Shown here one piece after another: positions 3,197 to 7,456 of a DNA stretch of 22,883 nt. The notes beneath the pieces were generated by a model. That model was given only the letters and a program-made list of their open reading frames with translations, was not told the DNA's origin and made no database searches. The translations under genes were made by a program, and so were the position numbers. The stretch is taken from positions 1 to 22,883 of the IMG/VR virus record IMGVR_UViG_3300025127_000303; one strand, written 5' to 3'. The stretch comes from a virus. Position 1 is the stretch's first letter. Every line of letters starts with the position of its first letter.

Positions 3197-3874
3197 ATGA
3201 TAACAAAGAGAAAAATAACTGATTACATAGGGATAGTTGCAAATACTGCACAAACATCTCATTATGAATTATCTTTTGATGGATTATCTGAGGGATTAAG
3301 AAGATTTTTGAGTAGTAAGAATGTTGATCGTGCTTTTGTATTAAGAAATGCAGGTTTACTATGTAGTAGTGCCTCTTTACCCGGAAGTCAATTGGCAACG
3401 ACAGAGACCAGAGGTAATTTTATGGGTGTGATTGAACCCATGGTGCATAGTAGGATATTTACAACAATTAATCTTGATTTTTATGTAGATAAACAATATA
3501 AAATGATGAAGTTTATTGAGCATTGGATGGACTACATATCAAATGGATCAGAAAATTCAGGTGTTACGAAAGAACAGGATGGATATTACTATCGAATGAG
3601 ATATCCAAAGGATGCAGGAAATGGATATAAATGTGATAAAATAAAACTTATAAAGTTTGATCGTGATTATAAAGATTCAATAGAGTACACATTTTATGAG
3701 ATGTTCCCTAGAAACTTCTCATCTGTTCCTGTCCAATATGGATCATCTGATACTTTAAAAATGAGTGTAGAGTTTGCCTATACCAGATACATCTGTGGAA
3801 AGAGTTCAAGTCTAAGTAGACAGTTTGGAAACAATGAAAACTTCACTTCATCTTTACTTCGATTACTCACATAA
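3197..3874 (+). CDS. Tail-tube-fold protein, probable baseplate tail tube initiator (gp54-like)
   Basis: 225 residues. The order of elements resembles the gp19/gp54 tube fold: a short N-terminal arm, VLRNAGLLCSSASLPGSQL at about 50-68 (the 'C/A-x-A-x-LPG' turn of tube proteins), ETRGNFMGVIEPMVHSRIFTTINLDFYV at 73-100 (tube loop plus beta strand), KMMKFIEHWMDYI helix, and a C-terminal YTFYEMFPRNFSSVPVQYG then LKMSVEFAYTRYICG, equivalent to the 'F-x-G-x-F-P' and final strand of gp19. It is shorter than T4 gp54 (320) and close in size to cyanophage gp19, so tube proper versus initiator is not settled. Its place among hub genes, not beside the sheath gene, favours gp54. First gene of the rightward operon; no obvious ribosome binding site. 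Confidence 0.68.
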   Translation: MITKRKITDYIGIVANTAQTSHYELSFDGLSEGLRRFLSSKNVDRAFVLRNAGLLCSSASLPGSQLATTETRGNFMGVIEPMVHSRIFTTINLDFYVDKQYKMMKFIEHWMDYISNGSENSGVTKEQDGYYYRMRYPKDAGNGYKCDKIKLIKFDRDYKDSIEYTFYEMFPRNFSSVPVQYGSSDTLKMSVEFAYTRYICGKSSSLSRQFGNNENFTSSLLRLLT

Positions 3875-3896: not shown

Positions 3897-4613
3897 ATGC
3901 CATTACCTAAAATAAAAACACCGACTTATGAATTGGTTCTTCCGTCAACCGGAAAAAAAATAAGATACAGACCATTCCTTGTCAAAGAGGAAAAAATACT
4001 TATTATTGCATTAGAATCTGAGGATATAAAACAAATTACCAATGCGATTAAAGATGTAATCGGTGGTTGCATCTTAACACGAGGTGTAAAAGTAGATCAA
4101 TTATCAACTTTTGACATGGAGTATTTGTTCTTAAACATAAGAGGAAAATCAGTTGGAGAGGATGTTGAAGTATTAGTAACATGCCCTGATGATAACAAAA
4201 CTAAGGTTTCTGTTGTAATACCTCTTGATGATATAGAAATAGTAAAAGATCCCAAACACACTAAGGATATCAAATTGGATGATGATTTGAAAATGAGAAT
4301 GAAGTATCCATCTCTCTCACAATTTATTAATTCAAACTTTAATCCAAATGAAGTGGGATTAAAGGAATCATTTGATTTAATCACATCATGTATTGATCAA
4401 GTATATAATGAAGAAGAATCATGGAGTGCATCCGATTGTTCAAAAAAAGAACTTACTGACTTTATCGAACAATTAAACTCTCAACAATTTAAAGAAGTTG
4501 AAAATTTCTTTGATTCTATGCCTAAATTGTCATATACAGTAAAAGTACTTAACCCAAAGACAAAGGTAAAAAATGAAATAACTCTGGAGGGATTATCAGA
4601 TTTTTTCGAGTAG
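3897..4613 (+). CDS. 26: Baseplate hub protein / tail assembly chaperone gp26
   Basis: 238 residues; T4 gp26 is 208. The sequence fits the T4 baseplate protein family (Pfam T4_baseplate): LPKIKTPTYELVLPSTGK, then KIRYRPFLVKEEKILIIALES, a helical GGCILTRGVKVDQLSTFDMEYLFLNIRGKSVG block (about 57-90), a small beta domain (CPDDNKTKVSVVIPLDD), and a helical C-terminal half (LKMRMKYPSLSQFI, then LITSCIDQVYNEEES, then DFIEQLNSQQFKEVENFF). This layout, a beta lead-in with helical body placed just before gp51 and the tape-measure-like genes, resembles tail-assembly chaperones of the gpG type. The last codons contain a frameshift-like signal (T TTT TTC at 4601-4607), so a fraction of ribosomes may continue into gp51. 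The protein has no membrane segment and is probably cytoplasmic during assembly. Confidence 0.88.
   Translation: MPLPKIKTPTYELVLPSTGKKIRYRPFLVKEEKILIIALESEDIKQITNAIKDVIGGCILTRGVKVDQLSTFDMEYLFLNIRGKSVGEDVEVLVTCPDDNKTKVSVVIPLDDIEIVKDPKHTKDIKLDDDLKMRMKYPSLSQFINSNFNPNEVGLKESFDLITSCIDQVYNEEESWSASDCSKKELTDFIEQLNSQQFKEVENFFDSMPKLSYTVKVLNPKTKVKNEITLEGLSDFFE
4586..4591 (+). promoter_or_regulatory. Internal Shine-Dalgarno-like GGAGGG upstream of slippery site
   Basis: GGAGGG lies inside gp26, ending 9 nt before the T TTT TTC heptamer and 24 nt before the gp51 ATG. That is too far to serve gp51 initiation, but it is close to the spacing at which an internal SD stimulates -1 frameshifting (E. coli dnaX has about 10 nt). 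Such a good SD match stands out in this AT-rich sequence. Confidence 0.55.
4601..4607 (+). promoter_or_regulatory. Candidate -1 frameshift slippery heptamer T TTT TTC
   Basis: In the gp26 frame this reads gaT TTT TTC gag TAG, so the heptamer has the X XXY YYZ phase. Both zero-frame codons are Phe, and after a one-base backward slip both become TTT, so tRNA-Phe can re-pair. The new frame reads CGA GTA GGT ATG, entering gp51 in frame with no stop. An internal SD-like sequence lies upstream and a hairpin starts 5 nt downstream. Confidence 0.72.
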
Positions 4614-4643
4614 GTATGGCTCATACAAGTCTTGAGTCATACT
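4613..4643 (+). promoter_or_regulatory. Hairpin downstream of slippery site, burying the gp51 start codon
   Basis: Bases 4613-4623 pair with 4633-4643 (11 bp, two G-U pairs, no bulge) around a 9-nt loop at 4624-4632. The stem begins 5 nt after the heptamer, within the usual 5-9 nt window for frameshift-stimulating structures. The gp51 ATG (4616-4618) is in the 5' strand of the stem, which would hinder independent initiation there. Confidence 0.65.
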
Positions 4644-4798
4644 ATAAGTTAAATTTTGCCTTGATGCAGCATCATAAATATTCAATAACTGAACTTGAAA
4701 ATATGATTCCTTGGGAAAAGGAAATTTATATTTCATTATTACAACAGTATATTGAAGAGGAAAATTTAAAACGTCAACAGAAAGGAAGTGGCATCTAA
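4616..4798 (+). CDS. 51: Baseplate hub assembly catalyst gp51-like / C-terminal part of frameshift chaperone
   Basis: A short 60-residue frame with LESYYKLNFALMQHHKYSI, then ELENMIPWEKEIYISLLQQYIEEEN: two helices joined by a Pro-Trp turn. In marine T4-like phages the small protein after gp26 with this pattern (Y-x-L-N-F-x-LM-x-HHKY, then (M/I)P(W/F)E) is usually labelled gp51; T4 gp51 is much longer. The sequence closely recalls the T-type extension of tail assembly chaperones, where a P-W/F-E-x-x-x-Y motif sits between helices. Nothing resembling a working SD is at the right distance from the ATG: AGG at 4612-4614 is 1 nt away, and the start is inside a hairpin. It may therefore be made mainly by -1 frameshifting from gp26 or by stop-restart across the 2-nt gap. 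The end overlaps the next gene by 11 bases. Confidence 0.75.
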   Translation: MAHTSLESYYKLNFALMQHHKYSITELENMIPWEKEIYISLLQQYIEEENLKRQQKGSGI

Positions 4799-6287
4799 AG
4801 TTTCAAAAGATAAATTATTTAACATTCAAAGTAATCCAAATTTGGATGCTGCGGATACTGGTGTTGATCCAAAGACAGGAAAATATTTGTCAAAAAAAGA
4901 AAGAAGAGCAATATTTAAACAAAGAAAAATAAATGTAAGTAAAGTATTTGGTAAACGTGATGAATCATCAAGATTTGGATCTCTGGTAAAATTTAATCCT
5001 GACGATGTAGAGAATCAAACAGTTAGTGATAATGCTGAGAGTATTTCTGATATTGAAGAGTATATTGCTAAACAAACCCAAAGTATTGAAAAACTTAAAA
5101 ATTTTATTGTTGATAATGAAAAATTAGATAGAAAAAATGCCTTAGAAGAACAGAAAGAAAAAACTAAATTAGATGAAAAAAGAAAATTAGATAAAAAGGA
5201 GTTATTACTGGAAGCAGGGGATGAACCAGATAAACAAGTTGAAGAAGAAAAACCACAAACTGAAAGATTTAAAAAAGTAAAAGGATTTTTAGGAAAATTA
5301 AAAGATGCTTTTACTACCTTATTTGCAGGTTGGTTGACTGATAAAGGAATACAAGCGTTTAGAGCCTTCCAAGAAGGTAATATGGAGAAGTTAAGGAGCA
5401 TAGCAAAGAATGTGGCAGTTGCATTAGGAGTGGTTGGTGGAGTTTTGTTATTAGCTAAAGGAGGAATTTTTAAAATTGGAAAATTATTTAAAATTGTCTC
5501 GAAAGTATTTAAAAAAGGTCTTAAATTTTTGTTTAAATCATTAAAATCAGCAGGAAAAATGTTGACAAAAATGGGAGGTCAAATAGCAAAATTAGGAAAA
5601 CAAATATTAAAACTGGGTAAAAATATAGCATCAAATGCCTTAAAATTAGCAAAAAATGTGGTAGGGAAGGGAAAAAATATTGTAAAAAATGTGGTAGGAA
5701 AGGGAAAAAATATTGCAAAAAATATTGTAGGAAAGGGAAAAAATGTAAGTAAATCATTACTTAAAACTGGAAGTAAAAATGTAGCAAAAGGTGCTGCTAA
5801 AAAAGGAACAGCAAAATTAATCGCAAAGAAAATACCTTTAGTTGGTTTAGTTTTAGGAACTGCATTTGCAATTGACAGAGCAAGAAAAGGTGATTTACTT
5901 GGAGCAGGTATTGAACTAATTTCAGGTGTTGCATCAACTGTGCCTGGTGTTGGTACAGCAATATCAACTGCAGCTGATGTGGCAAATATCGCAAGGGATG
6001 TTAAAAAATCCACCACTGGTGAAGGTGAAGAAACTTCAAAAATAGATTCAAAAATTACAACAAATGCAACAAAAGTAAATCAAAAAAATGAGAAAATATA
6101 TGATTATGGAGCACCTGAAGATGAAGTAGTGGTAGTTGATGGATCACAAGATCAAAATGCAGGTGGAAGTCAAACAATGGCTTCACCTGATTATGGTGCC
6201 ATCGAAGAAGAAATAGTTAATTTTGATTCAGAAGATAGTAGTAATATGTATCTAATGGGAACTCAATCGGAGTTTAACATATTTTGA
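4788..6287 (+). CDS. Lysine-rich helical protein, probable tape measure or hub component (499 aa)
   Basis: The start is GTG at 4788, overlapping the gp51 end; the frame is closed upstream at 4767 and the next in-frame ATG is far inside. Residues 1-100 are basic with a KKERRAIFKQRK motif. About 80-145 is a charged coiled coil (IEEYIAKQTQSIEKLKNFI, then a Glu/Lys-rich run). FTTLFAGWLTDKG follows near 180, then a hydrophobic helix NVAVALGVVGGVLLLAKGG (about 208-226). About 228-325 carries 11-residue amphipathic repeats, including three GKGKN units, and 345-405 is a Gly/Ala-rich helical segment (IPLVGLVLGTAFAIDRARKGDLLGAG, split by Gly, then SGVASTVPGVGTAIS). The last 90 residues are acidic. Position after the 26/51 chaperones and before gp27, the helical repeats and the membrane-active look fit a tape measure or hub protein (T4 gp29/gp28 role). 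No direct homologue was recognised. Confidence 0.72.
   Translation: MASKVSKDKLFNIQSNPNLDAADTGVDPKTGKYLSKKERRAIFKQRKINVSKVFGKRDESSRFGSLVKFNPDDVENQTVSDNAESISDIEEYIAKQTQSIEKLKNFIVDNEKLDRKNALEEQKEKTKLDEKRKLDKKELLLEAGDEPDKQVEEEKPQTERFKKVKGFLGKLKDAFTTLFAGWLTDKGIQAFRAFQEGNMEKLRSIAKNVAVALGVVGGVLLLAKGGIFKIGKLFKIVSKVFKKGLKFLFKSLKSAGKMLTKMGGQIAKLGKQILKLGKNIASNALKLAKNVVGKGKNIVKNVVGKGKNIAKNIVGKGKNVSKSLLKTGSKNVAKGAAKKGTAKLIAKKIPLVGLVLGTAFAIDRARKGDLLGAGIELISGVASTVPGVGTAISTAADVANIARDVKKSTTGEGEETSKIDSKITTNATKVNQKNEKIYDYGAPEDEVVVVDGSQDQNAGGSQTMASPDYGAIEEEIVNFDSEDSSNMYLMGTQSEFNIF
5622..5753 (+). repeat. Tandem 33-bp (11-residue) repeats inside the tape-measure candidate
   Basis: Three near-identical 33-bp units lie at 5655-5687, 5688-5720 and 5721-5753, encoding NVVGKGKNIVK, NVVGKGKNIAK and NIVGKGKNVSK. 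A more diverged unit (NIASNALKLAK) precedes them at 5622-5654. The 11-residue period is the hendecad spacing of amphipathic helices. At the DNA level the repeats could vary in copy number. Confidence 0.85.
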
Positions 6288-7456
6288 AACAGTCAGTGAT
6301 GAAAATTGGTAAGTCGATGTTTTCCAAAACTGGAAATTTAATTTCGGGTGTAAAAAAATCAATTCAAAAATCTAAAACGATTAAAAAAGGAACATCTAAA
6401 ATAAAATCTGTTTTTGAAAAGAAAAGATTAGAGAAACAAAAAAGAAATCAAAAAGAACAAAATTTAGAGAATAAAGATAATCCCACAATACCACAAAAAA
6501 ATAGAAAAATTGAACCAAAGAAATTTGGATCAAATATTATGTCAGCAATAAAAAAATTATTATTAGGTTGGTTAGTTATCAACATACCAAAAATTATTGA
6601 GTCAATTAAGGTAATTATTGATAAGATAAAAGAATTTGTTGACTTTATTAAAAATATAATACCTAATATTAAAAAATTTATCGGTAATTTATTTAAACCG
6701 TTTAAAAAACTTGATGATGATGTAGTGAATTTAGATTTAAAGTCAGGTGAAGAACAAGTAAAACAAGAAATAGATAATTTTGAAACTGAAACAAAAAATA
6801 CAATTGGAGAATTTGATCCAGAGGAGAAAAAAAAGTTAGATGAAGAAGACAAAAAAGATAAACAGGAAGAAAAAAAAGATAAATTAATAACTTCATCATC
6901 AAGTTCTGCTGTTAAAGAATTTAAAGAAGACGATACTACAACATCAGATAGTATAAAAAGTGATCTAACAACAATTACCTTTGACGGAATGACATATCCT
7001 AAAGGACGTTCAGGTCTCGGTGGATTTATTCCTGGTGCTGGTGAAGGTGGTAGTACATATGGTCAGACTGAAAGTTTCGAATCAACAGATTCTAATCTAT
7101 TAAATGAAGAAGGTGGATTAAACATAAGTTTAGAAAATTTTAAAGATAACACTCCTGACGCAAGTTCATTACAACAAGCAGATTCAAGAGAGGGAAATTT
7201 ATCTGTGAATAATATAAGCAAAACATTAGAAATAGATAAATCAGTGGTAAATAATAAAAATATGACAACTGTAAATAATATAAATCAATTTAGAAAACAA
7301 AAAAGAAAAACTGTTGTGATTAATTCAAATAATCAAAATAATAATAATATGAGTAACAATATGATGCAAACAAAATCATCTTCAAATGTGGTAGTTGTAA
7401 AAGAAAAATCAAAAAAAATTGATGATCTTTTATTTTCAAAATTAGGAGATTTATAA
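6284..7456 (+). CDS. Second lysine-rich helical protein, probable hub/tape-measure partner (390 aa)
   Basis: The open frame overlaps the upstream stop (TTGA), so a TTG start at 6284 is possible, with GGAG (6269-6272) 11 nt upstream. An ATG at 6299 has no SD but gives a normal start (MKIGKSMFSKTG). Residues 20-80 are highly basic coiled coil. About 80-150 contains FGSNIMSAIKKLLLGWL, then a long hydrophobic/amphipathic helix series (INIPKIIESIKVIIDKIKEF, split at several Ile-Pro turns) ending FKPFKKLDDD. This echoes the AGWL region of the preceding protein. After residue 165 it is low complexity: acidic/lysine tracts, a Gly-rich segment (KGRSGLGGFIPGAGEGGSTYG) and Asn/Ser-rich runs, ending in a helical DDLLFSKLGDL. 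Function is unknown; gene order between gp51 and gp27 points to hub or tail-axis assembly. Confidence 0.7.
   Translation: MKQSVMKIGKSMFSKTGNLISGVKKSIQKSKTIKKGTSKIKSVFEKKRLEKQKRNQKEQNLENKDNPTIPQKNRKIEPKKFGSNIMSAIKKLLLGWLVINIPKIIESIKVIIDKIKEFVDFIKNIIPNIKKFIGNLFKPFKKLDDDVVNLDLKSGEEQVKQEIDNFETETKNTIGEFDPEEKKKLDEEDKKDKQEEKKDKLITSSSSSAVKEFKEDDTTTSDSIKSDLTTITFDGMTYPKGRSGLGGFIPGAGEGGSTYGQTESFESTDSNLLNEEGGLNISLENFKDNTPDASSLQQADSREGNLSVNNISKTLEIDKSVVNNKNMTTVNNINQFRKQKRKTVVINSNNQNNNNMSNNMMQTKSSSNVVVVKEKSKKIDDLLFSKLGDL

Follow-up and report, generated by a model that had tools for sequence, protein, structure and literature searches.

In related phages gp51 is annotated to start at an ATG, which at the locus studied here lies just behind the stop codon of gp26 and inside a hairpin. 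The locus belongs to a T4-like, cyanophage-type tail gene cluster carried by an IMG/VR virus record of 22,883 bases, which over its whole length is called the window below. Phages of marine Synechococcus and Prochlorococcus were the best relatives of the window. We are highly confident that gp51 is not an independent gene, and that −1 ribosomal frameshifting at the end of gp26 joins it to gp26. This reading is based on sequence, conservation, covariation and domain homology, from which we infer the slippage itself, its efficiency and its role in assembly.

Gene arrangement and the buried ATG

The gp26 ORF (3897–4613; this and all other features given here are on the plus strand) directly follows the gene for the tail tube protein (3197–3874; PHROG_45, E 5.9e-36, and PF23849). 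It codes for 238 aa with the C-terminus ...LEGLSDFFE in front of the stop codon TAG (4611–4613), and matched PF12322 (E 1.4e-72) and PHROG_150 (E 5e-77). This protein would be the short isoform (TAC-N, the 'G' protein). The gp51 ORF (4616–4798) lies in the −1 frame of gp26, which is open from 4577 through 4798 in the translation of the window, and would constitute the C-terminal 'T' extension of a long isoform (TAC-NC). It matched PHROG_634 (E 5.9e-28) and the C-terminal columns 239–278 of PHROG_150. By sequence, both domains are thus homologous to the T4 gp26/gp51 family (PF12322, PHROG_150/634). Two ORFs of 499 and 390 aa follow gp51 (4788–7456). They have no clear Pfam family, their PHROG names were only weak or misleading, and neither was identified as the tape measure; their position makes them candidate tape measure or hub proteins. 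A tape-measure-like gene comes next in two relatives, phiM12 and Listeria LIS04.

The ATG at 4616–4618, annotated as the gp51 start in relatives, is separated by 2 nt from the gp26 stop. The sequence-only reading had considered free initiation at this codon to be poor, with the ATG held in the 5' arm of an 11-bp hairpin and no usable Shine-Dalgarno (SD) sequence nearby. Folding with RNAfold agreed with this description: the hairpin (4613–4643) consists of a stem 4613–4623/4633–4643 and a 9-nt loop, and the ATG sits in the 5' arm. The segment 4608–4650 had a folding energy of −14.7 kcal/mol (z −3.4 against dinucleotide shuffles), and the native hairpin was more stable than all 300 synonymous re-encodings (z −4.2). 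Freeing the region from −12 to +13 at the gp51 start would cost 18.6 kcal/mol, compared to 1.9–7.9 kcal/mol at the other 11 gene starts and a median of 7.5 kcal/mol at 200 random ATGs. The gp51 start is locked in a stem, well beyond chance. It is also true that an SD is missing: the AGG at 4612–4614 ends 1 nt before the ATG, and the next SD-like element, GGAGGG at 4586–4591, is 24 nt from the ATG and too far away to serve it. This absence is nevertheless weak evidence and by itself uninformative, because several other genes of the window, namely those for the tail tube, gp26 and the 1087-aa and 2192-aa proteins, have little or no SD either.

The same observation makes the absent SD compatible with gp51 as a normal gene in its own right that is initiated at 4616, the way it is annotated in P-SSM2 and other phages. 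The cost of opening its start, however, is more than twice that of any other gene in the window, and the conserved slip site and the relatives without a start codon, both described below, argue against it as well. Independent initiation was rejected on the hairpin energy and on these start-less relatives, and we regard it as most improbable.

A probable slip site at the end of gp26

The gp26 gene ends with GAT TTT TTC GAG TAG, in which T TTT TTC is a heptamer of the X XXY YYZ type that lies in frame with gp26 (U UUU UUC in the RNA, 4601–4607). Shifted by −1, the codons are TTT TTT CGA GTA GGT ATG GCT and run unbroken into gp51. The element GGAGGG (4586–4591) lies 9 nt 5' of the slip site and is a candidate for an internal-SD stimulator as in dnaX. 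On the other side, direct reading and RNAfold placed a spacer of 5 nt, GAGTA (4608–4612), between the slip site and the stem. The hairpin that buries the gp51 start is a candidate frameshift stimulator that also sequesters the ATG, and is most likely part of the slip signal. In the dnaX cassette of E. coli, an internal SD-like element about 10 nt upstream, an A-rich heptamer and a hairpin after 5–6 nt act together, with a high measured efficiency. The window shares the three-part arrangement of upstream SD-like element, heptamer and downstream hairpin. It differs from dnaX by its U-rich site in a different gene.

Most ribosomes would read gp26 to the TAG at 4611 and yield the short protein. 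A fraction would slip from UUU-UUC to UUU-UUU on the heptamer, a step promoted by the hairpin 5 nt downstream and probably also by the SD-like element, and would continue in the −1 frame (...LSDFF-RVGMAHTSLESYY...) to give a gp26-51 fusion of about 300 aa. In this fusion the ATG at 4616 would most likely be read as an internal Met codon. The output of gp51 would be tied to that of gp26, as the sequence-only reading held; that it would also be the lower of the two is an expectation by analogy to lambda.

To see how widely these features occur we gathered 265 loci with gp26 relatives; scans with the gp26 of ACP17 and PG216 gave almost no new ones. The gp51 domain was found in the −1 frame in 247 loci, in the same frame as gp26 in eight (T4-type gene 51) and in the +1 frame in one (Synechococcus phage S-SCSM1). 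Five loci gave no match and four were incomplete. Removal of duplicates left 205 distinct −1 junctions, some of them from related contigs, so that the counts given here are not independent events. The relatives ranged from cyanophages to phages of Vibrio, Aeromonas, Stenotrophomonas, Acidovorax and Sinorhizobium. An in-frame U UUU UUC/U heptamer was present near the end of gp26 in 204 of the 205 junctions, as compared to six occurrences in 47,706 codon positions elsewhere in gp26, and in none of the 205 did a stop interrupt the −1 frame between the slip site and gp51. Frameshifting, which the sequence-only reading had named merely in passing, is on our reading the main mechanism.

Codon choice around the site was equally constrained. 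The codon before the Phe pair was always NNT, whether it encoded Ser, Ala, Asn, Asp, Thr, Gly or His. The first Phe codon was always TTT and the second was TTC in 195 of 204 junctions, against a TTT:TTC ratio of 1494:660 in the rest of gp26. Upstream, the Glu codon of a conserved E-G pair was GAG in 148 and GAA in 34 cases, the reverse of the 1310:3061 found elsewhere in gp26, which suggests selection for the SD-like element. A 4-base SD core preceded the heptamer in 189 of the 204 junctions.

These data also bear on transcriptional slippage, in which the polymerase rather than the ribosome would change frame on the U run. The run of six T is invariant in the window's clade, as might be expected in that case. 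Six bases are a short run for polymerase slippage, however, and the C that caps the run in nearly all junctions, in spite of TTT being the commoner Phe codon, is the opposite of what selection for a longer run would produce. The codon phase of the heptamer and the stem and SD-like elements fit ribosomal slippage instead, and we give a transcriptional origin very little credence.

A few relatives deviated from the common arrangement. S-SCSM1 (MK867354.2; locus L083, 3195–3265) has an intact heptamer, a closed −1 path and gp51 in the +1 frame; compared by eye with its relatives, it carries about 11 extra bases around the stop, which shift gp51 to +1. This is a single isolate, for which an error of sequencing, free initiation and a −2/+1 shift are the candidate explanations. 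In Listeria phage LIS04 (L095, 2980–3939) the gp26 homologue lies between the tail tube and tape measure genes and an unannotated T-like ORF was found in the +1 frame after GAG TTT TTT AGT, an arrangement which suggests a −2 or +1 shift. Vibrio phage D507 (L089, 2540–2800), Aeromonas phage phiA8-29 (L093, 3200–3450) and Serratia phage phiMAM1 (L094, 3200–3400) have gp26 homologues and a T-like −1 ORF with an MPWHL motif, without U UUU UUC. Their slip site must differ and could lie, for example, around CTT TTC or GTT TTC.

Start codon and hairpin among the relatives

According to the sequence-only reading, ribosomes stopping at the TAG could also restart at the ATG at 4616. Such termination-reinitiation would produce free gp51 coupled to gp26, alone or beside frameshifting. 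The short distance between stop and ATG is in line with this proposal, as is the presence of an ATG at +5 from the gp26 stop in 110 of 205 relatives. A ribosome that reaches the stop would moreover open the base of the hairpin and could bypass the lock, and S-SCSM1, in which the −1 path is closed, retains an ATG before gp51. A start codon conserved near the upstream stop was nevertheless not found: in the stretch from where the −1 frame opens to the conserved LESYY core of gp51, 70 of the 205 distinct junctions have no ATG and 52 have neither ATG, GTG nor TTG, among them isolate S-RIM2 and Aeromonas phage Asswx_1. In these 52, therefore, only a frame change can yield the domain.

Its place is then usually taken by a leucine codon other than a start codon. 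In the 167 relatives sharing the exact geometry of the window, the position of the ATG was occupied by ATG in 105, CTN in 56 and TTA in three, by ATC, TTG and TTT in one each, and never by GTG. To judge from these codons, a hydrophobic residue is kept at this position, not a start. Conservation is far stricter for the heptamer and its codon choice than for the ATG, and T4-type phages encode the gp51 domain only as a fusion. Restart as a conserved route was rejected on the start-less relatives, and its general importance was not supported; as a source of gp51, alone or beside frameshifting, it seems unlikely to us. Some room for a second use of the codon is left by the window's clade, where the ATG was kept at the 4616 position in 64 of 69 sequences. 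Its conservation there goes mostly with base-pairing to the CAU in the 3' stem arm. Restart may add some free gp51 in this clade as a minor path.

In Synechococcus phage S-RIM2 (L085, 2708–2899) the usual start codons are all missing further upstream, and the annotated gp51 start, at 2762, therefore falls within the conserved domain. This start is an annotation error, accounted for by the frameshift. In Asswx_1 gp51 was not annotated. For the gp51 domain of these two start-less relatives, no source other than a frame change is evident.

Conservation of the stem was more restricted than that of the heptamer. In an alignment of 69 sequences, 90.5% of the stem cells were paired, as opposed to 23–48% when the partner was slid by 1–3 columns. 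Pair 4621–4635 was U-A in 29, G-C in 23 and A-U in 11 sequences, a three-way compensatory change in which a synonymous Ala wobble base tracks a Glu/Ala/Val change in the 3' arm; it was the only pair of the stem with strong double-sided change. Among relatives with the stem of the window, 62 of 68 matched or exceeded the stability of the best 5% of synonymous versions. This level was reached by 28 of 37 relatives with the ATG but another fold, and by just 18 of 62 without the ATG, which would make the hairpin a clade-level stimulator and not an essential part of the signal. A stem that is not kept would have spoken against the sequence-only reading; this was the case only outside the window's clade, where the heptamer stays, and within the clade the stem is kept and covaries. 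A universal stem was rejected, as other clades have different hairpins or none that could be detected locally. A local hairpin appears to be common, with a sequence that turns over; the heptamer does not.

A further possibility, which we put forward tentatively and think rather doubtful, is that one and the same hairpin has a double function in the window's clade, as stimulator of the −1 shift and as a mask over the in-frame AUG. The T domain would then be made only as fusion and never free, and the ratio of fusion to short protein would be kept tight. S-SCSM1, with its −1 path apparently broken by an insertion, would in this case represent a natural switch to free initiation or to a −2/+1 shift.

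Domain homology and relation to known chaperones

The AlphaFold model of gp26 had a pLDDT of 89. Its residues 1–86 aligned with the tail assembly chaperone (TAC) of HK97 (2ob9) with Z 7.9 and an rmsd of 4.0 over 84/107 residues. This TAC and two similar proteins were the best structural matches, and the first unrelated-looking one followed at Z 4.2. Since the HK97 match by Foldseek alone was not significant (E 1.6), we consider the evidence for a TAC fold in gp26, the N-terminal protein, as moderate. No relative of solved structure was picked up in the PDB when its sequences were searched with the gp26 profile, and a fold comparison of the T4-type gp51 model had no TAC among the matches listed.

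The gp51 of the T4-type phage T2 is a single ORF of 249 aa, in which PF12322 covers residues 2–200 (E 2.7e-54) and which PHROG_150 spans to column 280. A profile built only from −1-frame gp51 domains matched residues 208–245 of this protein (E 5.6e-7) and did not match T2 gp26 in the same two-protein search. AlphaFold models of the window gp26 and of T4-type gp51 agreed in the order of their elements; gp51 had additional C-terminal helices (208–248). In Escherichia phage T2 (L081, 2668–4094), genes 51 and 26 are adjacent divergent paralogues; gene 51 has both domains in frame and gene 26 the first only. T4-type phages therefore need no frameshift, and the single ORF of T2 gene 51 shows that the fused product is a natural form. 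T4-type phages would so have a gene for each form, short and long, the two being adjacent and divergent; in most of the relatives examined, one gene and a frameshift would supply both.

The T4 proteins gp26 and gp51 have been listed as hub assembly chaperones (PMC3004832). The G/GT frameshift of lambda-type tail assembly chaperones was described by Xu 2004, and a 2016 review reported G-GT frameshifting as conserved in long-tailed phages except T4 (PMC5009743). As in lambda, the window would have a short and a −1-extended protein, encoded just downstream of the tail tube gene, with the slip site near the end of the first ORF, and gp26 and gp26-51 so correspond to G and GT. By this analogy, the short form and the fusion would act as chaperones of the tape measure protein, and recruitment of the tail-tube protein would fall to the fusion. 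The lambda slip site is G GGA AAG, in contrast to U UUU UUC here. Also unlike lambda, the window locus has an SD-like element and a hairpin burying an in-frame ATG, and its gp26 domain is longer, extending beyond the HK97-like N-terminal part.

Tail assembly chaperone genes of T4-like phages were identified by Vladimirov, Gautam and Davidson 2022, as cited in PMC10885494 and PMC12846349. In some T4-like phages, according to these two citing papers, a short gene is accompanied by a long one that is a fusion; they also report poly-T −1 slip signals within TAC-N genes of the T4-like group. They indicate that the frameshift system has already been described for T4-like phages, and the window locus would be the frameshifting form of those gp26/gp51 chaperones. 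The evidence for a dispensable and buried gp51 ATG, the conservation of codons and stem and the SD-like bias are added here, and may or may not be contained in the 2022 work.

Many cyanophage records list gp51 as a gene of its own under the name 'baseplate hub assembly catalyst'; in some of them, such as S-RIM2, its start is truncated. The interpretation of gp51 as a −1 extension of gp26 corrects these annotations and ties cyanophage tail assembly to the G/GT principle of lambda. T4, the listed exception among long-tailed phages (PMC5009743), would make the same two products with a separate gene for each. Slip site, stem and start codon occur in hundreds of natural variants, by which the role of each part can be tested.
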